Assembly: GCA_021234155.1 (NCBI GenBank)
Contig: JAJEKV010000003.1
Location: 31,727,166 to 31,791,165, forward strand
DNA: 64,000 nt
Reading direction: 5' to 3'
DNA from: Isoetes taiwanensis
Taxonomy: Eukaryota > Streptophyta > Lycopodiopsida > Isoetales > Isoetaceae
How positions within the stretch are numbered: the stretch's first letter is position 1; every line of letters starts with the position of its first letter. A program made the position numbers and the translations under genes. Shown in pieces: positions 6,231 to 59,765 of the stretch. Below the pieces are notes generated by a model. It worked only from the letters and a program-made list of their open reading frames with translations, did no database searches and had not been told where the DNA came from.

Positions 6231-8198
6231 TTAGGTGCTGGGTGCTGTCGCGTTTTTTTGATCACTAGTATAGAATTTACACCCTCTTTCAAAAATACCC
6301 ACAGCTGTTAAGTAGGATAGGAAAGAAAACATCCATTTGTTCTTATTTTGACTAGCACAATTATCTAGTTGCAAGAGGAGCTTTCTGGGCAGATCTCGAG
6401 GTTTAGCACGAGATGTTGAAGCTCCAACATGTTCATTAGGTCCATTCCTCCTAAATCTTGCCTTGCTAAACTTTTCAATACTATTAGGGGTTCCATCCAA
6501 CAATGCACTATGTAGTGCCCGGCTAGTCAGGGATCCTCGTAGGTGACCATTGTAACCCTTCTCATAGTTTCTTAAACACCTCATGATACTCCCAATGTGA
6601 AAATCTGGACCATCACTCCACAACTCTAAACTAAAATGGCCATAATAGGTCTGAGACTGCCCATGCAATATTGCCCCAGTCATTGAAATCTGCAAAGGGT
6701 ATGATCTTCCACATGACTTAGGAATGTACTTGAATTGTGGAAGACAAGTCTTCTGTTGGTCCATTTTATCATGTATAATACATAGATAGTTATTAGGTTC
6801 CATTGCGGATAAGGTCCTCCACATCCAATAAGTTGATCTACATGATAGTTGATCCGTCATATGGTCCTTCATATGTTCCCTTATCTTTGCCCTTAGACTT
6901 GGTTGCACAGCCTTATCTAGTGTCTCCTTCAACTTAGCACATAAATTGCACTTGGCAAAGTTGTTTGAAGTTGCTATGGTCACATGCTTGAAATGCTTAT
7001 TCCATAGCCTACTAAAACTGGGTCGGGATATAGAGGCCACTCCAAGTTCCCCGGCAATGCATTTATTTCCTCTAATATGCTCTTTCCTGGGTACAATGGG
7101 ATGGCAATCTCTTTTCAACAATAACTCTACCCCTCTTTCATCCTTCTTACTCTTATGTGGCATGTTTTCTCGCATTGAAATCCACATATCTTTCAAATAT
7201 TTCCTTTGGTACTATAGTTCTTGAGGTAGGCCTTACTAGGTCGTTGTTCCCATGCAATGCAATTTTACTACCATTTTCATGTCTCTTTTGCCGGTTGTTG
7301 CCAAGAAGAGGTTGGAATTCCATGTATAGCCATCCATGCTTTTGAACATATCCACTTTCCATTCAATGGGAATCTTTTTAGCCTTTGATCTTTCATCCCC
7401 AATTGCATAGCCAAATATGGTGTACATGAAATTCCTCCTGCTATCACACTTATGTTCCCGATATGTAGCCCTTGCTCCCACCAACTCCTCTATTGTGAAC
7501 ATTCTAACACAAGAAGCCCAACAACATTCACCTCCTCTAACCTTCATCATAGCTTCGGAGAACAATCATAATCGACTTGCATCTTTTGGTGGGATAATGT
7601 TTGAAAGTTGGAAGTGGCCTCTTGCTATCTTGTGTGAACATTGTTGACAATGGTTCTACATCTATAGGAAACGTGTAGTTCCCCTCGGTTGAATATCTGT
7701 CCCTAGGCCATGCAACAATAGTTGGAACCTCTAGTTGCTTCACACAAGCTAGGCATTCTTGTTTGCCCAACCCTTTTCCTTCCAATTGTCATATAATTTT
7801 GAGATTGCCACACCTAACCTTTGTCCTCCCCGATCTTTCATCATTCAATCGTTTGCATTGATAGGATCTGCTAGAACAATAATCCCTTCTCCCATCTTTG
7901 CCTCTCATTTTGCATGCATGCAGGATCTTGACCTTTTTGTTTTTCCAATCCACCCGAGTATAAAGTACAATTTCCTTTCCTTTGGCATCATCCTTTTCAT
8001 TTGAGGTCTTTTCCTTTCCTTTGCCATCATCAACATCATTTGGAGTCTTTTCCTTTCCTTTGCCATCATCAACATCATTTGAGGTATTTTCCTTTCCTTG
8101 GCCATCATGTTCATTAGTTGGGGATTTTTCCTTGCCTTGATCAGCATCATTGGGGGCTTTTTTTTTAGCATTTTGCATGCCATTGACCTAGAATGCAT
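6231..8198 (-). pseudogene. DUF7869-type transposon protein, copy A (truncated, broken)
   Basis: Minus-strand pieces run from an N-terminal lysine-rich repeat region (from about 8178) through a zinc-like CCWASC motif (near 7525) to a core with CNLCAKLKE, IIHDKMDQ and LQLDNCASQNKN (7196-6231). The core matches copies B and C of this window and the DUF7869 family as I remember it. Copies B and C continue into GHTHDDIDALFG; copy A stops before that block, so its 3' end is missing. The pieces lie in different frames between 7785 and 7153, so the gene is broken by several frameshifts or unresolved introns. The core may be a metal-binding nuclease of a DNA transposon; this is inferred from its multi-copy nature and neighbours. 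Confidence 0.62.
7985..8135 (-). repeat. Coding tandem repeat (about 42 bp)
   Basis: Three to four units of about 42 bp (CCTTTCCTTTGCCATCATC on the plus strand) encode repeated Asp-Asp-Gly-Lys-Gly-Lys-Glu-Lys stretches near the N-terminus of DUF7869 copy A. Confidence 0.8.
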
Positions 8199-9728
8199 AA
8201 AAACATATAGTAAGTTAGCATATCCAAATAATCTCTCATTAACATGTTCATAAATGAAAGCCTCATATATGTCTTATTCTATTTGATCATTCTATTTATA
8301 TAATGGGATTCCCCAAGTTATTTTCCTCAACATTATATATAAATAAAACCCTCTACTTATAACCTTCTAACTTTTATCCTATAATAACCTTAGCAACAAC
8401 TTTTAAGGTTATTAATTATAGGTTAGCAGTTTTAAGGTTAAGAAGTTTATTATAGGTTATTATAGGTTAGAAATTTTAAGGTTGGAAAGTTATTGTAGGT
8501 TAAAAGTTTTAAGGTTAGAACTAAGTTTTAAGGTTAGTTTTAAGGTCACTAACTTAACTATTAACTTATAACTTTTAAACTATTAACTTATAACTTATAA
8601 CTTAAATATTAACTATTAACTTATAACTATTAACAACTAACTTAACTATTAACTCATAACTTTTAAACTTTTAAAGTCACGGTCCTTAAAACAAAAAATC
8701 TTTGTAATAAATTTTCGCGGCAGTGATAATTGCACGGTACGAAATTTTGAAGGCAGTTATTATTTGAAGTTAGCATTCGTTTTCGAACTGCTTTCTCTCA
8801 CTTTCGAACTTTTCGCATTCCAAACTAATTCCAGGCGCTTCCGCTTCCAATTCCAGGCTTCCGCTTCTGCTTCCAATCTCGGCTTCCAAATTCGGCTTTT
8901 ATCTGCTTCTCGGCTTCTATCTGCTTCAATCTCGACTTCTCGGCTTCTATATGCTAAACTCGGCTTCTATCTGCTTTTTATCTGCTTTTATCTGCGTTTT
9001 CGAGGTTTTCGGCTTCTACAATCATCTGCTTTAGGGTTTTCGGCTCAAAGATGTTTTCGGCTCAAAGGTTTGTAGGCTCTGTACAATGTCTCTGGCTTTT
9101 TTGGCTTTTCGGCTCTCTACAATCTCTCTGGCTTTGAACCGCCCGCCCGTCCGCCCGCCACTTGAATTTCTTCGCATCCGTCAGCGTCCGCCCGGCGTCC
9201 GTCCGTCCGTCACTTGAATTTTAAAATTTGAATTTGAATTTCCCGCCCATCCGCCAATTGAATTCTAAAATTTGAATTCCCCGCCCGTCCGCCACTTGAA
9301 TTTTAAAATTTGAATTCCCCGCCACTTTTCGCATATATTGTGCCAGTCCCTGTCTCAAAGCCGTTTATAAAAATCTTGGGTACGATATGGTAAAAAGTGG
9401 CTTTTCGTCCTCGTATTCGCAGGTTGCGATTTTACGCTCCCCGTCCTCGCTTCAACATTCGTAGGTACTTGCGCCTGAGAGGACTTGGCCGCCAAGGCAG
9501 GGCGCTCGTCAGACGTCTATTGCGCCTTTCATTGGTTCCTCAGGAGAGTTATTTGATTTGTGTTGCTTTGTACAGCATGCGCTTCTTTGGGCGCTACCTT
9601 CAGTTGCAGGCGCTTCACTTGGTTAGCAGGCGCTTCTTCATTTCATAGCAGGCGCTTCTTCATTTGATTGCAGGCGCTTCCTTTATTTTGAAGGCGCCTA
9701 CTTGATTCAAGGCTCTTTCCTTCTTTCA
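8199..9728. other. Repeat-rich intergenic region between DUF7869 copies A and B
   Basis: No convincing gene. About 8330-8680 is AT-rich with many TTATAGGTTA / TAACTTATAACTT units. About 8830-9070 repeats CGGCTTCTATCTGCTT. About 9130-9330 repeats a unit of CCGCCCGTCCGCCACTTGAA followed by an AT-rich half. About 9555-9720 repeats GCAGGCGCTTC five times. The last block runs directly up to the start codon of copy B and may be its 5' leader or promoter. Confidence 0.6.
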
Positions 9729-21124: not shown

Positions 21125-21590
21125 GTGATCCCCTCCTCCGGGATCACTACGTGCGTGGCTGGGGATCCCCACCTCCGGGATCACACGTCCGCGAAAAAAA
21201 CATTATTTAATTTCAATGGTATGGATATTATTTTCGATATTAAGGGATATTCGTAGATGATGGGATGATCCCTCCTCCGGGATCACAACATAATTAATGG
21301 GAATCCCCTCCTCCGGGATCACACGTCCGCGAAAAAGCATTATTTAATTTCAATGGTATAGATATTATTTTCGATATTAAGGCATATTCGTTGTAGTTGC
21401 CGGATGATCCCCTCCTCCGGGATCACAACATAATTAATGGGGATCCCCTCCTCCGGGATCACACGTCCGCGAAAAAAGCATTATTTAATTTCAATGGTAT
21501 GGTTACTATTTTCAATATTAAGGCATATTAAAGCATATTCTTCTGTAGATGTCGTGTGATCCCCACCTCCGGGATCACACGTCCGGTTCT
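21125..21590. repeat. Internal tandem repeat of the MULE, about 139-bp unit
   Basis: Units start near 21164, 21301 and 21442. Each holds two copies of the GATCCCCTCCTCCGGGATC motif, an ACACGTCCGCGAAAAA segment, and AT-rich sequence with CATTATTTAATTTCAATGG. Seven motif copies lie here. The same motif forms both termini, so the element carries binding-site-like arrays at its ends and in its middle, between the two convergent genes. Confidence 0.88.
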
Positions 21591-27364: not shown

Positions 27365-28988
27365 TGTGACGGTCCACGGGAATATACGCCATAAATACGT
27401 ATATTCTTGGATCCGTCACTATACAAGTCTAGCTTCATAGCCTTGTATACCGTAGATTGTGGCACTAGGGGGCATGGCCAAGTTATTCTCATAACTTAGC
27501 CAACCATAGGTTTAGACCATTATCCACGTGGCCTTAACCTATTGGGCACCCGCCACACAGGACTCACCCGATTGGTGCCACATGGCATCCTAAGTGGACC
27601 TAACTTATATAGGCCTAAACCCTAACCCTAGGCCTCTTTCCAGCCCTAGCACCCAGAGACTCACCTACTCGTTCGAAACCCCGTTTCGAACATCGTTTGC
27701 TGTGGCATAGACTGGTGTAGCAGCCCCAGCAAGGTAGACTCGTTCTTGGAGCAGGAACATCATCACGTGAGTCAAAGACCATGGAGGCACACGGATCTGG
27801 AGAGAGAGCATCAGGAGCAGGTATGGAGGGTAGTAGTTGTGATAGCTTATCTGGAATTGGCCTTCCAGATATGCTAGTATCTTGTATCTAGAGTAGAGCC
27901 ATCCTAGAACCCATATTCAACATCTTAAACCCTAATCAAGGAACCCTAACCATTAGTTAGATTTGTATGATTAGGTTAAGATGTTCTTCTTATGATTATT
28001 CTCATGATATGATGATTATGTGATGTTGGTTGATCATGTTTGCTCCTCTTGTATTGGGAAGGGGGGTAGAGACTTAGGGCCATATGTAGTATGCTCCTAG
28101 AGTAGATCCCTTAGTTCCTATTAGATGCGGCCTGTGCATAGGAGCCCACCAGGCTATCGAGGCTATGATATGACTCAGAACCATATAACGAGGCTAGAGG
28201 GAATGTGGAGGGAGGATCCCTGCCGAGTGGGGGCTTCGGGGGATCCCATAGTGGGCTAGGCTTATGATCGGTCACTTCGTGTGGGCCGAGCATGGGTCCG
28301 ACACCTCCTGGGGCAATGGTGTTGCCCTGCCTCTCGAGAGCTGCAAGTGTTGGCTTGGCTCTCGTTTTGGGGGGTCCAGTCGGGTACGAATCGTGTGTCG
28401 CCACGATTCTCTAGCCGCCCACGGCACCGCTAGACCCTGGGAAGGGGAGATGCAACCCTTCCTGCCTCATCGGACCAGGGAGATGCAACCTGGAGTAGTC
28501 CCGATGGGTGATGCCATGGGATTGCGTATCCGGAAGGCTAGAGTCATGCCAGAGCCTGATTTAGCCCATCTGCAAAGTATGCACAGGAGGGGTAGCCATT
28601 GTTCTATGCCAGCCCTCGTCATTGCCATGACTCGGTCTGCTCTATCTTGAGGCCTAGCCAGTCAGTCATCCTCCTTATGAGTCTGAGCCGGGGTAGGAGC
28701 TCTCATGTTTTATGGTTCATGATTATCATCTTTGCATTGGTTTATGTGTGATGCGCTACCCTTCGAGGTAGTATTTGTATATGTTTGAAGTTCTGACGTG
28801 TTATCGCTTCCGCTGTTATAGGAGCCCATAGGGGAAGGACGCGCAAGACATCTTCGTGTTCCCTCCCCGCACTAGGGATCACCTCAGAGTGCGGGGTAGA
28901 CGAAGGGCCCGTGCGGTTGTTGAGCCGGACGGGGGATTTCCTGCCGAGTGTACGGCCGGACGCCGTATGTTTAGTAGGGAGCGTCACA
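27365..28988 (+). repeat. 5' LTR of the chromovirus
   Basis: 1,624 bp, starting TGTGACGGTCC and ending GGGAGCGTCACA. TTATATAGGCC near 27605 is a likely TATA box; two plant-telomere-like units (CCTAAACCCTAACCCTA) follow it directly. Homologous over its whole length to 38758-40404. Confidence 0.95.
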
Positions 28989-29003
28989 ATGGTATCAGAG
29001 CGA
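28989..29003 (+). promoter_or_regulatory. Primer-binding site (initiator tRNA-Met)
   Basis: TGGTATCAGAGC follows the 5' LTR after one base. It is the standard complement of the plant initiator tRNA(Met) 3' end, used for minus-strand priming by plant LTR elements. Confidence 0.93.
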
Positions 29004-29571
29004 TGTTCTTGGTTGACCAAGAACTAGCACTGACCATAACCATGAAAGTAGTCTAACAGGCCTATAGGGGTGGGAAATAAACATTTCCACCATGGAACCG
29101 CGAAAATGGGGGAATTTTTTTTTTTTTCTCCTAGGTAGTGGGTCAGGAATTAGGTTAAGTGTTAGACGAAGGAAAGAGTGAGTCAAATTCATCTTCTAGT
29201 AAAATTTGGAGTGGAAATTATGCATCTACATCGAATTTCACCTAAAATGGGTCGAAGAATCATACCAATCGGAGACCCAGGTGAAAAATGGCGCAAATTC
29301 ATAATTAGCACCTCAAATTATTAGAGAAATTCGAAAATGTAAGGTATAATATGAATTAAAGTAGTTTAATTATATACATTAATAATTAAATAAGTACTAA
29401 ATATGGTATATTTAATAAGGGGGGGCTAATAAATAGGCTATTTATGGTAGGGGAATATTCCTAGGGACCCTCCTCTTTAAATATCCCTAACACCTCATTT
29501 TCCCTCCAAACTTTCCTCCACCTTATCTCTCTTGATCAGCCTATCGTCACCCGTTTCCTAGACCGTTAAGT
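29004..29571 (+). other. Leader of the chromovirus, up to the H3-like ORF
   Basis: Non-coding. TTTAAATAT near 29476 followed by a pyrimidine-rich stretch (CCTCCAAACTTTCCTCCACC) could be an internal promoter about 90 bases ahead of the ORF start. Confidence 0.45.
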
Positions 29572-30684
29572 ATGGCAAGAACCAAGCAGACAGCCAGGAA
29601 GCCAGGTGAGTGGCCGACACTCTCAATGGCGCACCTAGCAGCCGGACGACATGTGAAGAAGATACCGGAGCACCTACGACCCAAGAAGGGGGAAGAGGAG
29701 CCTCCCCCCAGCAGCAGCAGCAGCGGCGATACTTATCACGACGCTGAGGAGAGCCCTAGCAGCAGTTCCCCGTCGGCAGGCACGCAAAGAACGGACGAAT
29801 CTCGCCACTTCGGGGCCACAGACACCGAAGTGGAAGAACAGGTGGAAGAGCAGGTGCAAGAGCCGGGGCCTTCGGCGCCAAGGAAGAAGGGCAAAGAGAA
29901 GGTTGCGGAGTGGCCAGAAGAGAGGGCCGCGAGGAGGAAGAGGGAACGGGAGGAGGAGCTGCGGCGGCAGGAGCGGAGGACAAAGAGAAGAAACGACGGG
30001 CCTCGCCGAACCGTCGTGATCGAGGAGCCTCCCTGGCAGGAGGAGGAGCAGGCGGATGAAGTTGAAGAGGAGGAAGAAGAGCAGGAGGAGGGCGCGGACC
30101 CAAGACCACCTTACCCAGTGTGGCCCGAGCCACCTAAGGTGGTTAAGAAGCAGAAGGCGGGCGAGCGAGCCTTTGCCTTGAAGGAGGACCGCCTCTACCA
30201 GCGCCGCCTCAAGGCGTACCAACAATACCTCCGTCAGTGGACGAGGTATAATGATTGGTACTGCCGGCAAAACGTCCAGCGCACCGTGGAGGGGGGCCGG
30301 CCACCAAAGAAGCAGCCCAAGCCGCCGCCGCCACAGCCCGAGAAGCCGAAGAAGGTCCACCATGGACCTAATTCCCCGCACGCCCGAGTTTTTCGGGAGA
30401 TTAGGCACTTTCAACAGTGCACTAATCTCCTGATTAGGAAGGCGCCGTTTGAGCGGCTCATGCGGGAGGTAATGCAGGAGTACGTCACCGATTATAGGGT
30501 GACGTCGCTCACAACTCGGGTGTTGCAGGTAGCCGCTGAGGCCGAGCTCACCCAGTTGTTCGAAGAGGGAAACCTCTGCGCAATCCATGCGAAGAGGGTG
30601 ACCCTGATGCCCAAGGATATACAATTGGCGCGTCGCATCCGCAAGGAATACCCTTCAAGATGCAATTTTGTTAAACTAATGTAA
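29572..30684 (+). CDS. Histone H3-like protein encoded by the chromovirus
   Basis: Intact frame of 370 codons inside the element, same strand as gag-pol. Residues 1-10 are [10 protein letters not shown], identical to the H3 N-terminus including Lys4 and Lys9; H3 Ser10 is Pro here. Residues 11-270 form a long linker rich in Glu, Arg, Ser and Pro with no counterpart in H3. From residue 275 (REIRHFQ, nt 30394) to about 358 there is an H3 histone fold: [11 protein letters not shown], then TDYR, then [18 protein letters not shown] and LARRIRKEY. The stretch from the alpha-1 end to alpha-2 has the same length as in canonical H3, without the longer loop 1 of CenH3 proteins. A 12-residue tail follows. 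Role unknown: it could enter nucleosomes, imitate the H3 tail, or guide integration (inference). It is not a cellular H3 gene moved by chance next to the element, since it lies inside both LTRs. Confidence 0.93.
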
Positions 30685-30784: not shown

Positions 30785-31085
30785 AAATTGCAAAACTGAC
30801 GAAACCGGGTCCCGTCGCGCAAAACCCGTCTGCGCCCGCGACGCAGACCCATTCCGCGCGACGCCACCCGATTTCGCCATTTTATAGCTAATCCATGTCC
30901 AAATTAAGTAATAAAAGTTGCTAATTAAGTTAGAATCATGCTAGAGAGTCATGTTAGGATCTTCTAATACCCTAAAACTCTTCGTAAAAGTAGAAATAAC
31001 CCGAAATCGGGTCCCGTCGCGCAAAACCTACCTGCGCCCGCGACGCAGACCCATTCCGCGCGACGCCATTCGATTTCGCCTAAAT
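30785..31085 (+). repeat. Two direct repeats of about 85 bp between the two extra ORFs
   Basis: 30795-30880 and 30995-31082 share GGGTCCCGTCGCGCAAAAC, CTGCGCCCGCGACGCAGAC and CCATTCCGCGCGACGCCA. The two copies are about 200 bp apart and GC-rich in an AT-rich spacer; CTGCG...CGCAG within each can form a hairpin. The function is unknown; possibly a control region. Confidence 0.85.
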
Positions 31086-31249: not shown

Positions 31250-31262
31250 GTCTATAAAAAGG
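31250..31262 (+). promoter_or_regulatory. TATA box ahead of the second extra ORF
   Basis: TCTATAAAAAGGGCC lies 110 bases before ATG 31371 and is followed by a pyrimidine-rich leader, as in an ordinary plant promoter. An internal promoter in an LTR element would let this frame be expressed apart from the genomic RNA. Confidence 0.55.
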
Positions 31263-31370: not shown

Positions 31371-32885
31371 ATGGCACCATCAAGCTTTGTTAGATGGTAC
31401 AATGACTCCAATCACATCCGTGATTTTCCTGCTGAGCAAGCCTTTCATGTCTTTGATCATCTCTTTGATCTCCATGCCACCTTAACCAGAATTCCTTACT
31501 ACACTGACATCATCTGTCAATATGATCAGCACATTCTACCCGGGGAGGTTAGCTTGCCACCTAGGGGAGGGAAATGGGTTTCCTTAGACACCCTTGCCCA
31601 AGCCATAGGTGGGGGATCCAGGGGCAAGAGTAGGCTGTGGGATAGAACCAGAAACATGCCAGACTACATGACCTGTAAGCACCATAGGCATAGGTACGTC
31701 TCAAACCAGGCAGCTTTAGCCTTGTTCATGCAGTACAGGGCAGTCAACCAACCAGGCGAGCCGTCGATTCAACCCTTGGATTTAGCTCCTCTCGACACTC
31801 GAAGGCAGCAGATAGGTATCCACGAGATCGAAATGGCGGAGTACGAATACCACGGCTCCACATCAGAAACACCTAGGTTGCAGATTGAACAGGATTACGA
31901 GGAAGAAGAGGAAGAGAACCCAATCTGGGAGATAAGGGAGGCAAGAAGGATGGAGAGGCGTCTAGCTCAGCAACAGGAGGTGCTAAGGCGAGACTTCGAG
32001 CCGCCAATAGGTATTACGGCCCTCACCCCAGTGATCATCGACGGTGAGGAGTATATATTCGCCACCGACGTCCTTAACCTTCCCTATTGCCAAGAGGAGA
32101 ACCTCAGGATAGACGAGCTCCAAGGCCTAATTGCACAGGAACAGGGTAGCGACTTCATCGACTACTCCTACCAGGAGATCCCAAGGGAGGTAGCCGAGCG
32201 ACACTCCGATGCAGGGGAAACCGTGTCCGATATCCAGGCATACCAGCAGATAAGGCAGATGTTTCAACAACAGCAACCCGACATTCCAGAGGAGGAATTC
32301 CAGGAGATCCAAAGCAGGTTGTACAAGCCGGGAAGAGGCCCAAGTTCGAGCCGACCAGTCCGCTCCAGGAGCATGCGTGAAGCATCTAGCAGCATTAATC
32401 TGGAAAACGCAGCAACAATGTGGAGGGACCATGAAGATCTTACAGCAATAGATATCTTCGGCCAGGCAGCTAGCAGGAGAGGCACGGGAGCCATGGGGCC
32501 ACGCAGGGGTAAATCACTCAGGTACTATCTTCCGGCCCTCAGCCAGGGACAGATGATAGTCTTTCACAAGGAGTTCAGCCCAAGGGGTGAAGAATCAGTG
32601 GCGCTCCTTATAGCACTCACAGGGTTTGGGCAGCATGCCAAGATAGATGTCGGAATGGACCATGTTATACTCTTCAAGAGAGCAGTAGCCCTTCACGCCC
32701 TCGACTTCGCAAGGGGTCACCTCAGGGATGCGCACTTGTCAGTGGTGGCGGCAACTGCACCAGAACTACCAGCACCACAGGTGGCAAGAGCATTAGAGGG
32801 AGGATCGACGACCAGAATACTGCAGAACATGGGCAAGGGCACAACATTCAAGAAAATCAAGAACTTCTTCAAGCGACATCGTTGA
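31371..32885 (+). CDS. Second extra ORF of the chromovirus, function unknown
   Basis: ATG 31371 gives 504 codons (MAPSSFVRWYND); a longer in-frame reading without ATG reaches 31332. No domain recognised. Visible parts: an N-terminal globular half (VFDHLFDLH, then CKHHRHRYVSNQAALAL, which has His/Cys); an acidic stretch (EEEEEENPIWEI); an Arg/Gln-rich helical centre (RRMERRLAQQQEV); a segment with LTGFGQHAKIDVGMDHVILF; and a very basic end (FKKIKNFFKRHR). The frame is intact. It lies between the H3-like ORF and gag. It may be a captured host gene or an accessory protein; the basic tail suggests nucleic-acid or nuclear binding (inference). Confidence 0.75.
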   Translation: MAPSSFVRWYNDSNHIRDFPAEQAFHVFDHLFDLHATLTRIPYYTDIICQYDQHILPGEVSLPPRGGKWVSLDTLAQAIGGGSRGKSRLWDRTRNMPDYMTCKHHRHRYVSNQAALALFMQYRAVNQPGEPSIQPLDLAPLDTRRQQIGIHEIEMAEYEYHGSTSETPRLQIEQDYEEEEEENPIWEIREARRMERRLAQQQEVLRRDFEPPIGITALTPVIIDGEEYIFATDVLNLPYCQEENLRIDELQGLIAQEQGSDFIDYSYQEIPREVAERHSDAGETVSDIQAYQQIRQMFQQQQPDIPEEEFQEIQSRLYKPGRGPSSSRPVRSRSMREASSSINLENAATMWRDHEDLTAIDIFGQAASRRGTGAMGPRRGKSLRYYLPALSQGQMIVFHKEFSPRGEESVALLIALTGFGQHAKIDVGMDHVILFKRAVALHALDFARGHLRDAHLSVVAATAPELPAPQVARALEGGSTTRILQNMGKGTTFKKIKNFFKRHR

Positions 32886-33173: not shown

Positions 33174-34350
33174 TTGTTTGGCAGAGAACAAGAAGACTTT
33201 GAGCAGGACATGTCACCAGAGGCAATCAACGCAAGGCTGGTGCAGATGAGGAACCAGATGCAAAACCTGATCAACTGGGCGGCACCTCTGATGAATGAAC
33301 AGGAAGATGGTCCTCTACCTCCACCTCCACCCTGCCTTCCAGGTGGTGACGAAGTCCCTCAGCAGGAAGGGGAGGGCAACCAGGGGCACGTCAGGGATAG
33401 GAGAAGGAAGAGGAGAACAAGGAGCCCATCGTCATCTAGCTCCAACACATCAGATAGTTCTTCCAGCGAGGACAGCTCTAGCTCCGACAGTCAGTCTGGC
33501 ACACCTAAGGCAAGGAAAAGGGCAAGAAAGACAGATGACTACCAGAAAAAGGTGGATAGTGCTATGAGCAATGTGTGGAAGACAAGGAAGCTGGGCCAGT
33601 TCTCAGGGAAAGACAGATCAGGCATGGAAGCTGAAGCATGGCTTGATGAAATGGAAGAATTTGGTAACTCTTACGGTATGAAATACAAGGACATAGGGAA
33701 AGTTGCTACAGCTAACCTTATTGGACCGGCAAGGATCTGGTGGAAGGGATATGCTAAGTCTAACAAGCTGAAGAGGAACAATTGCAGATTTAAGACTTTC
33801 AGCAAGGCTTTCCGTAAGCACTATGTGCCAAGGTCCCATACTAGTAGACAGATCTAGCAGTTTTACAGGTTGAATCAGGGTAGCCTATCAGTGGCTAAGT
33901 ATACCGAAGAATTCATGAGGCTTAGGCTTCATGTCCCTGGAGTATCAGAAAGGCAGGCAGTAGATACCTACATTGAGGGGTTGAACAGCAATATCAAGAG
34001 GCTTGTTAGAGCAATCAACCCAAGGTCGATTCGCGAGAGGCGAAGATAAAGCTATAAGTTTGGAAGAGGCACCGGCAACTCCAAAGCAGAGAAACAGTCA
34101 ACCTTCAGGGGTAAGAGTTCAGGGCAATATCAGGGGCAATATCAGGGTAAGCAATCAGCAGCTACACCATCAGTAGGCCAGCAGCAAGGTAAGGGTCAGA
34201 ACAAAGCCTTTGGGGACCGTAAGCCACAGAATGCATCGGGGCGGTGCTTTAAGCCGCCTTCTAGACAACCTGCCAAGGAGAAGAGACAGAATGCATTGAG
34301 AAAAGTTATGCTTCAGGTGCTTCCGGCCGGGGCAATCAACACACGATTGT
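33174..34350 (+). CDS. gag region of the chromovirus (broken)
   Basis: Ser-rich, acidic N-terminal part, then a Retrotrans_gag-type capsid segment ([20 protein letters not shown], then ARIWWKGYA, then FRKHYVP) and a basic Gln/Gly-rich end. Capsid/nucleocapsid precursor of the fossil element. No clean CCHC knuckle is seen. The region contains breaks. Confidence 0.82.
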
Positions 34351-34359
34351 CCATTTGTC

Positions 34360-37300
34360 ATGCAGTCAGCCTTGGCAGAGCTTTTGGATTGGGATTCCCC
34401 AACAGAAGCGGACGAAGACGACGACCAGCAGGAGGCCCATGACTTCATAGATGGTGAGTGCCACATATGTGCAAACATTGAGTCAGATGATATTGAGAGT
34501 CAGTCGACCGTCATCGCGGCCGATGGGATTATAGATAGTAATCCATATGTAGTCCTCATAGATACAGGTAGCTCTCACAATTTTGCATCTCCTAGATTGG
34601 CTGCCCTAATGAAGAACAAGGTATTGAAGTCTAAGCCAAGGCCAGTAGCTATGGCAAACGGCGCCATTCGGCACACTAAGGGGAGGAGGATCATCTTTGA
34701 CATAGACCTTAGTGGGGCTAAGTGGCCAATGGGGGCAGAAGTCATGGATATCGGAAGGTATGATCTTATAGTGGGGATGGAATTTCTGAAGCCAGCCAAA
34801 GCTATGATTGATTGCGATCGGAATGAAGTCACCGTGACGGCACCAGACGACAGCAAATTGATAGTCAAAGGTAAGAAGCTAGATTCTCCTATGCAGTGTA
34901 TTTCCTTGAAGCAGCTAAGGAAGAGTATAGAAAGGAACAAGGTGGACTACATCTTGAGGATGGAATCAGTTGAGCCAGGCAAGCAGGAGGGAAGTGACCC
35001 AAAGGGGAATCAGCCACCCAAGCAGATAGCGAGGCTTATTTCAGAGTTCAAGGATGTATTTCCGGATGAAATCCGGCAGTTGCCACCTTATAGGGGTGTG
35101 GAATGTGAGATCACATTAGCTCCGGATGCGAAGCCTACCAGTAAGGCGCCATATAGAATGAGCACCCCAGAATTGATTGAGCTCAAGAAACAGCTTCAGG
35201 AATTGCTCGAGCTTGGATTCATAAGGGCAAGTGTGTCTCCTTTTGGAGCACCTATACTCTTCGTGAAGAAGAAAGACGGGAGCTTAAGAATGTGCATAGA
35301 CTATCGCCAGCTCAATAAGCAGACGATAAAGAATAAGTATGCATTGCCAAGGGCGGATGACCTAATGGACCAGTTACAGGGAGCAAAGGTATTCTCTAAA
35401 ATTGATTTGAGATCAGGATACCATCAGATAAGGATAAAAGAAGAGGATATCCATAAGACCGCTTTCAGAATGCGGTATGGTCATTTTGAGTTTACAGTAA
35501 TGCCCTTTGGATTGTCAAACGCTCCTGCAACATTTATGCGCCTTATGAATGACATCTTCAGAGACTTCTTGGATGAGTTTGTCATTGTCTTCTTCGACGA
35601 CATTCTAGTCTACAGCAAGTCCCTCGAAGAGCATTGTCAGCATCTCAGGAAAATGTTGGAAAAGTTGAGACGTCATCGGTTGTATGGGAAGCTCTCCAAG
35701 TGCCACTTCGCAACAGGCCGAGTGGAATATTTGGGGCATGTAGTAACATCCGAGGGAATCTCCATGGATCCATCTAAGATTGAGGCAATTGGAAAGCTCC
35801 AAGGAATGTAGCAGAAGTAAGAAGCTTTCTCGGGTTGGCGGGATACTACAGAAAGTTCGTGAAGGACTTTGCTAAGTGGGCGTCCCCTCTGTCGGACCTC
35901 ACTAAGGCCAAGAAGATTAAGGATTGGACTAGCCATTGGTTAGAGAAAGTCCAAGCTTCCTTCGAGAAGCTTAAAGAGGCCTTGACAACAGCACCAGTGC
36001 TTGTTCTTCCGGACCCGAGTAAAGATAAGTTGGTAGCAACAGATGCGAGCAAGATAGCAACAGGGGCAGTCTTGATGCAAGAAGGAAGGGTAGTCGCCTA
36101 CGACTCGAAGAAGATGAACGACGCCGAGCAACGCTACCCAACCCATGATCAGGAGCTGCTAGCCATTGTCAGGGCATTAAGGATATGGAGGCATTACTTG
36201 CTGGGGAGGAAGTTTCAGTTAGATACTGATCACCAGAGCCTCCAGTATTTTTTCACCCAGCCACTCCTCAACTTAAGGCAAAGGAGGTGGATGGAATTCC
36301 TTGAGGAGTATGATTTTGATATTGTATATAAGCCTGGTAAGCTTAATGTTGTAGCAGATGCCCTCTCTAGGAGACCATTTCAGACAAGGACACATTGTAA
36401 TGCGATTTCCACTCTTTCGAGTGAGTTTGGTAAGAAGATTGAAGAGTCCTTGTCAACCGATGTGGACTTCAAGGAGGTGTGGGAAAGTCTCTCCAGGGAA
36501 GCCAGAACAGATAAGGAGCGGGAAGCCTTCAAGCATTATAAGAAGGAAGGCAACCTGTTGTATCACAAGCATAAGTTGTGTGTGCCCGAATCTTCAGGGG
36601 TAAGGAAGTTAATTCTTCATGACACACATAACAGCCCAACTGCAGGGCATGCTGGCTTCATGAAGACCTATTTCAAGATTCGAAGTAGTTACTTCTGGCC
36701 AGGAATGAAGCGTAGTTATGTCAGCAGACTAAAGCGGAGCAGCTTCGGATTCCAGGTGCTTTAGAGCCATTGGGGGTGCCAAATGCAAAGTGGGAGGTCA
36801 TAAGCATGGATTTCATCACAGGTCTCCCTAGGACTCTTCGAGGCAAGGATGCATTGATGGTTGTCGTAGACAAGTTATCTAAGATGGCACATTTTGTGCC
36901 TTGCAAGACTACTGACACCGCATTAGATACTGCCAAGTTATTTGTAAAGGAGATTTTTAGGCTCCATGGCATGCCTCGGGAGATAATATCCGATAGGGAT
37001 TCCAAGTTTATGAGTGCCTTTTGGCAGGACCTCTTCAGCACCATTCAGACGAAGCTCTCCATGAGCACGACATATCATCCCCAAACAGATGGCCAGACGG
37101 AGAGGACGAATCGGATCATTGAAGACATGCTTCGAAGTTATGTGTAGAATAAGCAGTCCAAGTGGGATGAGTATATCCACTTGGTGGAATTCGCCTACAA
37201 TAGTGCCAAGCAGGAGTCATCCCAGATGTCTCCTTTCATGGTAAATTACGGGTACCAGTGCTTAACCCCGGATACCTGGCACAATCCTGTGTCCAAGGTA

Positions 37301-37897
37301 GAAGTATCCCAGCAAATGCTAGGGGATATGCAGCAGTTAGTAGAGGAGGTAAGGGGTTATTTATTGGCAGCAAGAAGTCGGCAGAAGAGTGTAGCCGACA
37401 AGCACAGGACCGTAAGAGAGTTCAAGGTAGGCGATAGCGTTTGGTTGAAGATCAAGGTGAAGCAAGCCAAGCTTCGGATTGGGAGTTGCAAGAAGCTTGC
37501 CCCTAGGTGGGCTGGTCCGTTCAAGATTTTGGAGAGAGTAGGCTCTCAAGCCTACAAGTTGGATCTTCCGGCCCATCTCAAGGTTCACAAGGTCTTCCAC
37601 GTAAGTTTATTAAAGAGGCACAATCCTAACCCTGAGGAGGTTTTGGATACTCCAACCTTGTTGGAAATGACGGAGGAGCAAGTAGAAATAGTGCCTGAGT
37701 TACTTCTTGATAAGTCATTCAAGAAGACTAGGAGGTCTCAGTTCCTCCAATATTTGGTTAAGTGGAAGCACTTACCCGTGGAAGATGCGACATGGGTATT
37801 GAAGCAAGATTTGGAGAAGCAATACCCAGAGTTTATGAAGGAGTTTGATGGGCGAGTCGTCTCCGACTTGGTCGACCCCGACTTGCCAGGTGGTTAG
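34360..37897 (+). CDS. pol region: protease, RT, RNase H, integrase, chromodomain (broken)
   Basis: Domains in Ty3/gypsy order. Aspartic protease near 34555 ([10 protein letters not shown]). Reverse transcriptase about 35100-35750 ([12 protein letters not shown] and the catalytic box [10 protein letters not shown]). RNase H about 36030-36360 ([13 protein letters not shown], then [12 protein letters not shown]). Integrase about 36600-37200 ([26 protein letters not shown] and [14 protein letters not shown]). [10 protein letters not shown] and [10 protein letters not shown] follow. A chromodomain lies near 37740-37850 ([12 protein letters not shown], then EDATWV). The chromodomain places it among chromoviruses. 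The region carries several breaks. Confidence 0.92.
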
Positions 37898-38744: not shown

Positions 38745-38757
38745 AAGGGGGGGAGAA
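38745..38757 (+). promoter_or_regulatory. Polypurine tract
   Basis: AAGGGGGGGAGAA directly precedes the 3' LTR. This is the usual plus-strand primer site. Confidence 0.92.
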
Positions 38758-40404
38758 TGTGACGGTCCAGGGGAATATACGCCATAAATACGTATATTCC
38801 TGGATCCGTCACTATACAAGTCTAGCTTCATAGCCTTGTATACCGTAGATTGTGGCACTAGGGGGCATGGCCAAGTTATTCTCATAACTTAGCCAACCAT
38901 AGGTTTAGACCATTATCCACGTGGCCTTAACCTATTGGGCACCCGCCACACAGGACTCACCCGATTGGTGCCACGTGACATCCTAAGTGGACCTAACTTA
39001 TATAGGCCTAAACCCTAACCCTAGGCCTCTTTCCAGCCCTAGCACCCAGAGACTCACCTACTCGTTTGAAACCCCGTTTCGAACATCGTTTGTTGTGGCA
39101 TAGACTGGTGCAGCAGCCCTAGCAAGGTAGACTCGTTCTTGGAGCAGGAACATCATCACGTGAGTCGAAGACCATGGAGGCACACGGATCTGGAGGGAGA
39201 GCATCAGGAGCAGGTATGGAGGGTAGTAGTTGTGATAGCTTATCTGGAATTGGCCTTCCAGATATGCTAGTATCTTGTATCTAGAGTAGAGCCATCCTAG
39301 AACCCATATTCAACATCTTGAACCCTAATCAAGGAACCCTAACCATTAGTTAGATTTGTATGATTAGGTTAAGATGTTCTTCTTATGATTATTCTCATGA
39401 TATGATGATTATGTGATGTTGGTTGATCATGTTTGCTCCTCTTGTATTGGGAAGGGGGGTAGAGACCTAGGGCCATATGTAGTATGCTCCTAGAGTAGAT
39501 CCCTTAGTTCCTATTAGATGCGGCCTGTGCATAGGAGCCCACCAGGCTATCGAGGCTATGATATGACTCAAAACCATATAACGGGGCTAGAGGGAATGTG
39601 GAGGGAGGATCCCTGCCGAGTGGGGGCTTCAGGGGATCCCATAGTGGGCTAGGCTTATGATCGGTCACTTCGTGTGGGCCGAGCATGGGTCCGACACCTC
39701 CTGGGGCAATGGTGTTGCCCTGCCTCTCGAGAGCTGCAAGTGTTGGCTTGGCTCTCGTTTTGGGGGGTTCAGTCGGGTACGAATCGTGTGTCGCCACGAT
39801 TCTCTAGCCGCCCACGGCACCTCTAGACCCTGGGAAGGGGAGATGCAACCCTTCCTGCCTCATCGGACCAGGGAGATGCAACCTGGAGTAGTCCCGATGG
39901 GTGATGCCATGGGATTGCGTATCCGGAAGGCTAGAGTCATGCCAAAGCCTGATTTAGCCCATCTGCAAAGTATGCACAGGAGGGGCGGATGGAGTGGTCA
40001 ACCCTAGCCATTGTTCTATGCCAGCCCTCGTCATTGCCATGACTCGGTCTGCTCTATCTTGAGGCCGAGCCAGTCAGTCATCCTCCTTATGAGTCTGAGC
40101 CGGGGTAGAAGCTCTCATGTTTTATGGTTCATGATTATCATCTTTGCATTGGTTTATGTGTGATGCGCTACCCTTCGAGGTAGTATTTGTATATGTTTAA
40201 TGCTAGTTCTGACGTGTTATCGCTTCCGCTGTTATAGGAGCCCATAGGGGAAGGGCGCGCAAGACACCTTCGTGTTCCCTCCCCGCACTAGGGATCACCT
40301 CAGAGTGCGGGGTAGACGAAGGGCCCGTGCGGTTGTTGAGCCGGACGGGGGATTTCCTGCCGAGTGTACGGCCGGGCGCCGTATGTTTAGCAGGGAGCGT
40401 CACA
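38758..40404 (+). repeat. 3' LTR of the chromovirus
   Basis: 1,647 bp, with the same ends as the 5' LTR. A small insertion near 39985-40005 and a few bases near 40200 account for the length difference. Target-duplication copy GTCAG follows at 40405-40409. Confidence 0.95.
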
Positions 40405-55610: not shown

Positions 55611-56837
55611 AGCATTGACATGGCCCCACGCACCTGCCATTCCAGTCGAGTTGAAGTTCAATCCGGAAGAGGAACGCAAGATGGCAGAGCAAACCACTCG
55701 TGAACAGTTTAAAAGGTTTTACCCCTTAGGGGTTAATTGGTTTACAAAGATTTCTATTTTTGATTGTGAACCTGCACCAGCAAACTTGACACACAGAATG
55801 CGATCAAATGACCATGTTCAACCTCTGGTTAAAAGCTTCAAGACATACCCAATAGAGGTCCTCACACCTGCTGACGTCGTGCCGTTTGACCCTATTACCA
55901 GGTAACTGATTCTTTATCTTTTGGACACTCGTTATGTAGATTTGACTTGATGGTTACTCTATCTTTCAGGAGGAGGGTGACATGGAGCAATCCAGAGGAT
56001 TTGAAGGGCAAGAAATTTTATATTATTTCTGGCAACCACAGTATTTGCGCGGCACAACTCCTTTGTTCGTCGTCGGCCAGTTGGAGCAGCAACTAGAATT
56101 TGCCAAAGTATATGCTAGAAGAAGATCGAGGGTGCTCAACGGAAATCTTACAGACAAGGAATATATAGAGTTGAGTATTCAATGCAACGAAGTAATTGCA
56201 AACACCGTCTACAGAGAGCCACTGATTGAAAAACTGCAACAACTTCGTCATCAGCACACAAGGCTTATGGCTGTCCTCCACAAGGACCTATAGGGACAGC
56301 TACAACTTCAGCTTGGAAGGTATTTATTCATTTTCTACTCGCCAACATCGCGGCCGCGATCTTGATGACCTTTGCTTCTGCAGGATTTCCATGAAATTGC
56401 AACGACCACCTTGAAAGTGCAGGAGCTTAAGGATGAAAAACAATTCATCTTTATGAATGAGAAGGTTTTCAAGAAGTTAATGGAAGTTGCCGGAATGTGG
56501 GTGAGCCGTAAACTCAGTGACGACCATGGTGAGTTTCCGGACAAGCCATCCAAAGACTTCTTTAACAAGACCTGGCTCCGGTTGCTACGAGGTATGTCGA
56601 ATGCAGAGATGTCACTGCTGCTCGATGAGATTATAGAAGGCAAGACTTATTTAAAGGTGCAGTCAGGGTATAGCGGGAGATTTGATTGCAAACAACGGGC
56701 AACTGACATCAGAACCCTCACTTTTATGAGGCGCGAAATTTTATCTTATGCCACAAATTTGCTGCAAAAGGATTTCGATAGCTGGGAGGAATTGCTTCAG
56801 GCTTTTCCTGATTTGACTGAACAGAGAATACTGGATA

Positions 56838-58298
56838 TATCAGATACCGATACAGAGTACGTGAAGGCTAACTATAACAAGGATCATACACTAGGTAACC
56901 TACCTGTAGCCTTTCTGGAGCCAATCAGAAATATTCTAAAGCCAGAAGAGGCTAGAAAAAGAAAGGAAAAGAAAAATGTTGTCATAGCAGTGACAAAGGA
57001 TGGCATCCCTACTTCCTCCCAAGTGTCAGAGAATGCGACATTGATATTTATTGACATCCGAGGGATGAACAAGGTATGGGATTGCAAGAAATACACAGAC
57101 TTTTTTACAAGGATAGCTACCATGACGACTGCCAAAGTTTATCACTTGGTTATTATCATGCGCTCTGTGAATTTGCCCAATTGCTTGTACAGTCAGAAGC
57201 AAATTCAGGGCGGTGGCCACCTATCTTTAGGTTCTTATGAAGAAATGGGATGGGAGAGCAAACGAAGGGTGAAAGAACATCAGTACTATATTAGTCATAT
57301 GTGCATTAACAGGAGTGATGTTCGTGTAGAACCTGTGCAACCAGAGCTGGAGCTTCGCCTATCTCCACACAGCAAGGCTCCTAAGTCAACACCATTGCCT
57401 CCAATGCCGCTAACAGGTAATGAGGATGCCGATGAGAAGATAAAAAAGAAATTTCAGACTCTTTTTACAGGCAAACCAAGATTCAAATGGGCGGCAATGG
57501 AAGGAGATCTTGTATTGAAATGCCAAATTTGAAAACCTCGTATGCCTACCATATTGTTGAACAAATTGGTGCCGACCGACGGTTGCGCTCGATTTCTTTT
57601 TTTGCCGACAGCTTCTCGTGTTGCTCTTATGCAAGGGAAAAAGAGCGTGGCCTTCGAAAGTTCAGGTAAAGTGTGCCGTTTCCTAAGGGCGTTCTTGGAA
57701 ACGCTTGAGAAAATGGCCAATCAAAGTAAAAGGGGGTTTGAAGAAGAGGAGAAAGCAGAGAATGCTGAGCCTGATCCAGCGCTGCCCAACATCAGTATCA
57801 CCCAAAACACAGATCTATCAAGGTTGGATACCATTTTGGAAAACCTCGATGCTAAGTCCTACGAGGAGAGAATGCAAGAAACAAAGCGCTTGCTTGAAGA
57901 GACGGAAAAAGGTATAGAAGCCCTCGAGCCCACTTTTCAAAAATTAAGTGCACTTAATGAGAAGCTTGATGGGTACATGCCATTCTTGACAGTCGAACAT
58001 AAGTTTGAATACTTGGGCGTAGAACACATGGAAACAGACCAACAGCACATGGAAACAGACCAAGATGAGGCTGTTGGGACACAAGAGCATCAGGTACACA
58101 GCAAGAAGCAGAAGCTCTTTTATCCACAGCAAATTGCTACTCAATCGGAGAAGGATCTTATAGGCGGGAACAGTGCAGGGGAGAGTGAAAAATGGGAGCC
58201 TGATTCACATGTGCAGCGCATCGCAAACGCCATTGGTGTTGAGATTCCAGATGTCACAGGTTATTCAGAGATGGACACAACACAAGCTAATACTGCAT
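56838..58298 (+). repeat. Tandem duplication, unit 1 (about 1.46 kb)
   Basis: 56838-58298 is repeated at 58299-59765 with about 97% identity by eye. The junction shows the short shared word ATATATCAGATACCGATAC at the start of unit 1 and the start of unit 2, consistent with recombination at microhomology. Confidence 0.93.
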
Positions 58299-59765
58299 AT
58301 ATCAGATACCGATACAGAGTACATGAAGGCTAACTATAACAAGGATCATACACTAGGTAACCTACCTGTAGCCTTTCTGGAGCCAATCAGAAATATTCTA
58401 AAGCCAGAAGAGGCTAGAAAAAGAAAGGAAAAGAAAAATGTTGTCATAGCAGTGACAAAGGATGGCATCCCTACTTCCTCCCAAGTGTCAGAGAATGCGA
58501 CATTGATATTTATTGACATCCGAGGGATGAACAAGGTATGGGATTGCAAGAAATACACAGACCTATTTACAAGGATAGCTACCATGACGACTGCCAAAGT
58601 TTATCACTTGGTTATTATCATGCGCTCTGTGAATTTGCCCAATTGCTTGTACAGTCAGAAGCAAATTCAGGGCGGTGGCCACCTATCTTTAGGTTCTTAT
58701 GAAGAAATGGGATGGGAGAGCAAACGAAGGGTGAAAGAACATCAGTACTATATTAGTCATATGTGCATTAACAGGAGTGATGTTCGTGTAGCACCAATGC
58801 AACAGAGCTGGAGCTCGCTATCTCCACACAAAGAAGGCTCCTAAGTCAACACCATTGCCTCCAATGCCGCTAACAGGTAATGAGGATGCCGATGAGAAGA
58901 TAAAAAAGAAATTTCAGACTCTTTTTACAGGCAAACCAAGATTCAAATGGGCGGCAATGGAAGGAGATCTTGTATTGAAATGCCAGCTGAAAACCTCGTA
59001 TGCCTACCATATTGTTGAACAGCTGGTGCCGACTGACGGTTGCATTCTGGATTTCTTTTTGGCTGGGACAACTTCTCGTGTTGCTCTTATGCAAGGGAAA
59101 AAGAGCGTGGCCTTCGAAAGTTCAGGTAAAGTGTGTCGTTTCCTGAGAGCGTTCTTGGAAACGCTTGAGAAAATGGCCAATCAAAGTGCGGGAGGGTTTG
59201 AAGAAGAGGAGAAAGCAGAGAATGCTGAGCCTGATCCAGCGCTGCCCAACATCAGTATCACCCAAAACACAGATCTATCAAGGTTGGATACCATTTTGGA
59301 AAACCTCGATGCTAAGTCCTACGAGGAGAGAATGCAAGAAACAAAGCGCTTGCTTGAAGAGACGAAAAAAGGTATAGAAGCCCTCGAGCCCACTTTTCAA
59401 AAATTAAGTGCACTTAATGAGAAGCTTGATGGGTACAAGCCATTCTTGACAGGCGAACATAAGTTTGAATACTTGGGCGTAGAACACATGGAAACAGACC
59501 AACAGCACATGGAAACAGACCAACAGCACATGGAAACAGACCAGAGGTTGTTGGGACACAAGAGCATCAGGTACACAGCAAGAAGCAGAAGCTCTTTCAT
59601 CCACAGCAAATTGCTACTCAATCGGAGAAGGATCTTATAGGCGGGAATAGTGCAGGGGAGAGTGAAAAATGGGAGCCTGATTCACATGTGCAGCGCATCG
59701 CAAATGCCATGGGTGTTGAGATTCCAGATGTCACAGGTTATTCAGAGATGGACACAACACAAGCT
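58299..59765 (+). repeat. Tandem duplication, unit 2
   Basis: Second copy of 56838-58298. It differs by scattered substitutions and an extra HMETDQQ repeat (three against two). It leads into the original C-terminus of the gene. Confidence 0.93.

Follow-up and report, generated by a model that had tools for sequence, protein, structure and literature searches.

Does an LTR retrotransposon of the quillwort Isoetes taiwanensis, a lycophyte, carry a histone H3 gene of its own, and what might such a gene do for the element? The question arises from an open reading frame (ORF1) in a 64,000-nucleotide stretch of contig JAJEKV010000003.1, hereafter the window. An earlier reading made from the letters alone (the sequence-only reading) had noticed an H3 tail start and an H3 fold in this frame. 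Both are real: the reading frame is accompanied by a Pfam Histone match over ORF1 residues 245-357 (1.3e-30), and the top PDB chain for ORF1 is a histone H3 (111 bits, query residues 236-359). All 60 best of the 184 matched PDB sequences are histone H3 types. By sequence, ORF1 thus contains an H3-type histone fold.

Layout of the chromovirus and its ORF1

The element and its parts have the following window coordinates.

27365..28988, + strand: 5' LTR, ends TGTGAC...GTCACA (LTR comparison)
28990..29001, + strand: primer-binding site TGGTATCAGAGC, exact in 17 of 20 copies
29476..29482, + strand: TATA-like motif TTTAAAT, 96 bases 5' of the ORF1 ATG, found ahead of ORF1 in 19 of the 20 copies
29572..30684, + strand: ORF1 (retro-H3), 370 codons (reading frame, Pfam match, PDB match, copies, dN/dS)
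29572..29601, + strand: H3 tail tip of 10 residues, K4 and K9 kept (dN/dS 0.05, 35 copies)
29602..30291, + strand: charged linker insertion, helices predicted for residues 115-141 and 196-239 (dN/dS 0.11-0.18 by segment)
30292..30393, + strand: GGRPPKKQ..., what is left of the H3 tail's second half (by eye, PDB-match alignment)
30394..30648, + strand: H3 fold, H3 positions 49-133, ungapped against host H3 with 57 of 85 residues identical (dN/dS 0.07, residues 276-358)
30800..31080, + strand: two 79-bp repeats, 92% alike, separating ORF1 from ORF2 (repeat search)
31371..32885, + strand: ORF2, 504 codons from ATG, without a Pfam match (dN/dS 0.13, five copies)
33174..33857, + strand: gag part (Pfam)
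34360..35811, + strand: protease and reverse transcriptase (Pfam)
35835..36764, + strand: RNase H and integrase zinc-binding part (Pfam)
36770..37147, + strand: integrase core part (by eye)
37181..37897, + strand: integrase C-terminus with chromodomain at 37694-37849 (Pfam)
38745..38757, + strand: polypurine tract AAGGGGGGGAGAA (LTR comparison)
38758..40404, + strand: 3' LTR (LTR comparison)

The order is therefore LTR, primer-binding site, leader, ORF1, ORF2, gag, protease-reverse transcriptase (PR-RT), RNase H, integrase with chromodomain, polypurine tract and LTR. ORF1 lies inside both LTRs (27365-28988 and 38758-40404), downstream of the primer-binding site and upstream of gag, where the sequence-only reading had put it. 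Two LTRs, a tRNA-type primer-binding site and the gag-PR-RT-RH-IN order identify a Ty3/gypsy chromovirus. Its integrase has a C-terminal chromodomain (Pfam Chromo, 1.7e-11, 44.3 bits, above the cut-off). Read by eye, this chromodomain looks like plant group II, a group defined in the cited passage by the absence of the first, and usually also of the third, aromatic residue of the cage (PMC3350952).

The two LTRs differ by 1.6% (25 mismatches in 1624 aligned bases, 2 gaps), and the 5-bp target-site copies GTCGG and GTCAG agree at four of five bases. Gag, PR-RT, RNase H and integrase pieces occupy three different frames and gag-pol is consequently broken, while ORF1 and ORF2 are open, as had been remarked of ORF1 from the letters. 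Since the LTRs differ so little, an ORF1 that stays open after insertion is weak evidence taken alone. By-eye reading of the flanking ORFs suggests that the element may be nested in a LINE; a LINE frame across the joined flanks was looked for and not recovered.

A second TATA-like motif lies at 31253, 118 bases 5' of the ORF2 ATG, and CT-rich stretches follow the TATA-like motifs before both ORF1 and ORF2. These motifs are perhaps separate promoters of the accessory genes. The TTTAAAT before ORF1 is a lead only, the whole surrounding region being conserved, and a TATAAAT is found upstream in two of eight copies of the second family described below. The 79-bp repeats (30800-31080) are G+C-rich, recur in several other copies and possibly form a regulatory or terminator region.

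ORF1 starts in an ATG context with A at -3 and G at +4, and the first nine residues after the methionine are those of the H3 tail start. The sequence-only reading had placed a charged linker of about 260 residues between tail and fold. The charged insertion is present, at about 230 residues, and the split is best read as falling inside the tail, after K9, because the pre-fold GGRPPKKQ.. resembles H3 residues 12-19 by eye. The full H3 tail (K4, K9, K14, K18, K23, K27, K36) is not found, the window copy being intact for the first nine residues only. At its other end, ORF1 of the window extends nine codons beyond the usual stop, which 31 of 40 copies use, after ..RIRKEYP, ..RIRRERP or a near variant. 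An AlphaFold model of ORF1 has low confidence (mean pLDDT 50.9, and below 55 for most of the fold) and therefore contributes the helix pattern only; an ORF2 model has a mean pLDDT of 35.

Copies of ORF1 and selection

The sequence-only reading had argued that an H3-like frame confined to one copy, or unconstrained across copies, would be a chance capture. We identified at least 111 loci of window-type ORF1 (114 matches, three loci being in two pieces) in the I. taiwanensis assembly (1,658,258,908 bases, 1110 contigs), a lower bound since 111 of 23,694 first-look candidates were scored. A member of another subgroup, used as query, recovered at least 112 loci, many of them the same, and 80 of these have no stop inside the match.

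We retrieved the 20 best-scoring copies with 10 kb each and 20 hand-chosen ORF1s; as copies were chosen by high score or for spread, open frames are over-represented among them. All 20 best copies contain the leader sequence and ORF1, and 18 have LTR sequence upstream. Within their retrieved stretches, ORF2 sequence is found in 18, gag in 15 and PR-RT in 15, and these are open over 90% of their length in 4, 7 and 6 copies, respectively. In the copies examined, ORF1 is at the same place in the element. ORF1 may nevertheless be missing from some elements of the lineage: among the matches listed, it is upstream of 24 of 85 ORF2 loci. The tail tip is retained: 37 of the 40 copies match from residue 1, with K4 in 37/37 and K9 in 36/37 (R in L021), and residue 7 is A, Y or S.

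One deletion copy (L025) lacks gag and reverse transcriptase and has an open ORF1 between LTRs at 83-1721 and 7277-8915, with a perfect 5-bp target-site duplication (ACATT). It retains parts of ORF2 and an integrase C-terminal/chromodomain piece that is 99% like that of the window element. We count this copy in favour of a retained retro-histone. In L028 (3-122, element orientation), the LTR match of another copy begins about 60 bases after a fragment of the ORF1 end, a sign of deletion forms or nesting.

Cross-copy dN/dS provides strong evidence for constraint on ORF1. The pooled pairwise value is 0.108 for 35 open copies of the 40 (frames of at least 350 codons, leaving out L010, L021, L026, L039 and L040), and the two other frames over ORF1 give 1.95 and 1.85. 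By segment, values are 0.051 for the tail, 0.155 for the next 30 residues, 0.106 for the linker, 0.182 for the middle helix, 0.093 for the pre-fold part and 0.072 for the fold. The copies have diverged by up to about one silent change per site. Among the 20 long copies, dN/dS is 0.098 for gag (10 copies), 0.091 for PR-RT (8 copies), 0.130 for ORF2 (5 copies) and 0.126 for ORF1 (17 copies). On copies with open gag or open PR-RT (seven each), ORF1 gives 0.135 and 0.133, slightly looser than those genes. ORF1 is thus kept nearly as strictly as the core genes of the element.

Related families and the origin of the H3 fold

A canonical H3 query (150 of 9,041 candidates scored) returned 15 host H3 genes (97-99%), followed by at least 135 matches at 71-87% with open frames of up to 567 codons. 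Four of the 15 listed host genes lie within 300 kb on contig C1025 and two within 53 kb on contig C445; host H3s L053-L057 read AQEFKTDLRFQS(S/T/H)AVLAL. We inspected 12 of the 135 non-host matches (L049-L052, L058-L065). Eleven of these cores belong to a second family, L060 being the most deviant, and one (L052) represents a third type.

Full second-family ORF1s, seen in eight copies, have 409-425 residues and consist of a different N-terminal part and an H3 core. They start with MA(N/I/P)TK(S/T).. or similar and not with the H3 tail; the N-terminal part of the third type is related to theirs. A second-family ORF1 query detected at least 101 loci, 68 of them without a stop. Over the eight copies, dN/dS is 0.13 for ORF1, compared with 1.4 and 1.8 in the other frames, and by segment 0.036 for the core, 0.073 for the first 100 residues, 0.116 for residues 101-200 and 0.271 from residue 201 to the core.

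One second-family copy followed downstream contains, in the same order as the window element, the H3 ORF, ORF2, gag, reverse transcriptase and an integrase with chromodomain, with a broken pol. Its reverse transcriptase is 78% identical to that of the window element over 216 residues, and its integrase shares the window element's 10-residue motif. A homologous ORF2 comes after the H3 ORF in both the second and third families (39% between them, E 3e-56), to which the ORF2 of the window element is distantly related (21%, E 2e-5). The 60 best of 119 second-family ORF2 loci were compared with part of the listed H3 matches, and 35 of them have an H3 core 194-428 bases upstream, so that here too an H3 core may be missing from some elements. 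At G000:C1078:20992864-20996349 (- strand), a window-type ORF2, a second-family-type H3 core and a second-family ORF2 stand in a row, which may represent a nested or mosaic element.

Over the 85 ungapped columns, identity to host H3 is 57 residues for the window copy, 74-75 for the second family and 76 for the third. CenH3 loop 1 is longer than that of H3, and the ungapped match shows no such longer loop; we rejected a CenH3 origin on this loop length and on the 74-76 of 85 residues that the other families share with host H3. Silent sites between the families and host H3 are saturated (pS 0.74-0.95), so the H3 gene is old in the lineage. The same saturation led us to reject recent host gene conversion.

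The common layout, the homologous ORF2 and the 78% alike reverse transcriptases would favour one H3 capture over several. A single capture is not established, because a tree of the 85-residue fold, with 13 of 20 inner forks open, joins host H3 to the second and third families and leaves the window family outside, and thus fails to group the window family with the other two.

Plant LTR elements are known to capture host genes in one or a few copies, according to the cited part of a review (PMC7264820), and ORF1 might similarly be a passenger, captured by chance and spread with the element without a function. Such a passenger is scarcely credible here, provided that the alignments are sound, given a dN/dS of 0.11 in one family and of 0.13 (core 0.036) in the second, against 1.4-1.9 for other frames; the saturated silent sites further indicate that the gene is old in the lineage. 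The constraint whose absence would have marked a chance capture is present, the frame is neither rare nor unconstrained, and we rejected chance capture on copy number and dN/dS. ORF1 is almost certainly a stable, constrained retro-histone gene of a chromovirus lineage.

Candidate functions and known systems

Which activity selection maintains can be approached through the residues that the folds retain. Our set comprises 47 retro-folds (35 of the window family, 11 of the second, one of the third), of which 44 are full; the frames of L036, L037 and L038 leave H3 near the end. Retro-H3 has the fold and the loop lengths of canonical plant H3 and shares most of its contact residues. Of the 85 core positions, 34 match host H3 in all 44 full folds. 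R63, K64, R72, R83, C110, H113, K115, T118, L126, R129 and I130 are invariant, and R69, R116 and D123 each differ in one fold. Most of the residues by which H3 contacts H4, a second H3 and DNA are retained. Retro-H3 departs from canonical H3 in its replaced or split tail, in residues 102 and 107, which are changed in all full folds (G102 and T107 are replaced in 44/44, none sharing the host residue), and in residue 87, changed in nearly all. The commonest host residue, S87, is replaced in 44/44 full folds: residue 87 is L, F or, once (L060), H, compared with S, T or H in five host genes. It is therefore unlike the host S/T/H in 46/47 folds, the H87 of L060 matching host gene L057. Residue 87 is one of the positions at which chaperones distinguish H3.1 from H3.3, and L060 is an exception to any argument from chaperones.

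The constrained core and the retention of most H4-, H3- and DNA-facing residues make nucleosome formation the most likely activity, and retro-H3 probably enters nucleosomes. Alternatively, the protein could act as a decoy that binds H4 or the chaperones Asf1, CAF-1 or HIRA and starves host deposition without entering nucleosomes. The altered residue 87 and the retention of C110, L126, R129 and I130 in 44/44 full folds would suit a decoy, which would have no need of the DNA-facing R63, R72 and R83 (kept in 47/47) and R69 (46/47); we regard it as improbable.

Retained DNA-contact residues would also suit a histone that compacts element DNA in the particle or the nucleus before integration. Reverse transcription takes place in the cytoplasm, which argues against such packaging, and of the element ORFs that were compared with Pfam, ORF1 alone gave a histone match, so that host H4 would have to be drawn in. 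DNA viruses do encode histones, as the cited review text describes (PMC9145170). Packaging of this kind appears to us a poor candidate.

Chromatin silencing is a main plant defence against retrotransposons. Within the nucleosomal reading, we favour a nucleosome that resists or redirects silencing, because the rebuilt tail is where the host writes silencing marks. We propose that a chromovirus lineage took a host H3 gene and that a new N-terminal part replaced most of the H3 tail: in the window family the tail would have been split and mostly replaced, and in the second family altered before about residue 37. Retro-H3 would then pair with host H4 and be built into nucleosomes, and its altered chaperone-selection site at residue 87 may give it a deposition route other than that of host H3. 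Nucleosomes without the usual modifiable tail could not carry the normal H3K9/K27 silencing state, which is the least certain step, and the element would thereby slow its own silencing or loosen host heterochromatin. This suggests a parasite that makes part of the packaging by which it is normally silenced.

K4 and K9 at the tip of the window family count against this purpose, their retention fitting reading, or being read, at K9 as well as escape. We put anti-silencing forward tentatively, with slightly more doubt than belief. A wider proposal seems doubtful as a whole: a chromovirus clade with a dedicated H3, its core kept for nucleosomes and its tail rebuilt at least twice, would give chromatin in cells with the active element a parasite-made nucleosome mark on which host silencing could not write and which partner proteins of the element could read. 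A self-docking loop, in which the element's own integrase chromodomain reads its own methylated K9, was not favoured, since the cage looks incomplete by eye.

The main rival of the anti-silencing reading is tethering for integration, with the H3-like protein in the pre-integration complex bringing cDNA to chosen chromatin by way of H4 or chaperones. Several observations fit a tether. First, the chromovirus integrase ends in a chromodomain. Second, the long N-terminal part might serve to bind Gag, cDNA or ORF2. Finally, the homologous core is preceded by N-terminal parts that differ between the two families. The second-family core, however, has a dN/dS of 0.036, stricter than a mere tether would seem to need, and we consider a nuclear or integration tether rather unlikely.

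An element-encoded, selected histone H3 would be a counter-move to silencing at the nucleosome itself. The more than 200 H3-bearing loci with rebuilt tails form a natural set, which offers a direct test of what silencing needs of the H3 tail and of how chaperones discriminate H3 variants.

The sequence-only reading knew of no LTR element with an H3 gene, and our searches of openly licensed PMC papers likewise brought up no retrotransposon-encoded histone. The cited portions of a review of additional ORFs in plants name none with a histone (PMC7264820), and those of a viral histone review name none in retroelements (PMC9145170). The nearest precedent that we found is a hAT DNA transposon of a fungus, which carries an H3-like gene (PMC3538342). 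According to the cited text, this element of Pyrenophora tritici-repentis is, like the one described here, a mobile element with a many-copy H3-like gene and a neighbouring ORF of unknown function; its 26 H3L genes are very similar copies that point to recent spread, and their function is given as untested (PMC3538342). That system is a fungal DNA transposon, whereas ours is an LTR retroelement with diverged copies on which selection was measured. LTRs and pol are present here instead of the terminal inverted repeats and transposase of a hAT, and no inverted repeat of at least 60 bases occurs in 20000-45000.

Tekay-type plant chromoviruses also combine a chromodomain integrase with an additional ORF 5' of gag-pol, and the cited accounts describe proteins with long disordered regions that are predicted to be nuclear (PMC11728184, PMC7264820). 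The additional ORFs described there for Tekay and its relatives are not histones, whereas ORF1 ends in an H3 fold and is followed by a conserved ORF2. Viral histones resemble retro-H3 in joining a histone core to an N-terminal extension in a parasite genome: the cited review text reports a bracovirus H4 with a 38-residue extra tail and a nudivirus ORF with about 900 residues before an H4-H3-like doublet (PMC9145170). Those in the cited text belong to DNA viruses and mostly carry extensions of tens of residues on single histones, in contrast to about 230-310 residues before or inside the H3 part of a retrotransposon protein.

Searches beyond the genome contributed nothing informative. Neither ORF1 residues 185-295 (62 candidates) nor second-family ORF1 residues 1-300 (1923 candidates) had a match at E<=1e-3 among about 5.8 billion proteins. 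An IMG/VR scan confirmed none for ORF1 (0/316 stretches), PR-RT (0/37) or ORF2 (0/48). With full ORF1 as query, the best 120 of 3880 protein matches are 38-62% identical, a ranking that is uninformative on origin because the eight entries inspected in full hold two or more H3 copies.

Elsewhere in the window, an ORF at 2938-4056 matches the NLI-interacting-factor phosphatase domain (3.6e-14) and an ORF at 12550-13293 matches DUF7869 (2.5e-36). In a duplicated segment at 56372-59640, two pairs of neighbouring ORFs repeat each other, the first having no Pfam match. A 92-bp unit occurs three times at 21160-21529, spaced 137-141 bp.
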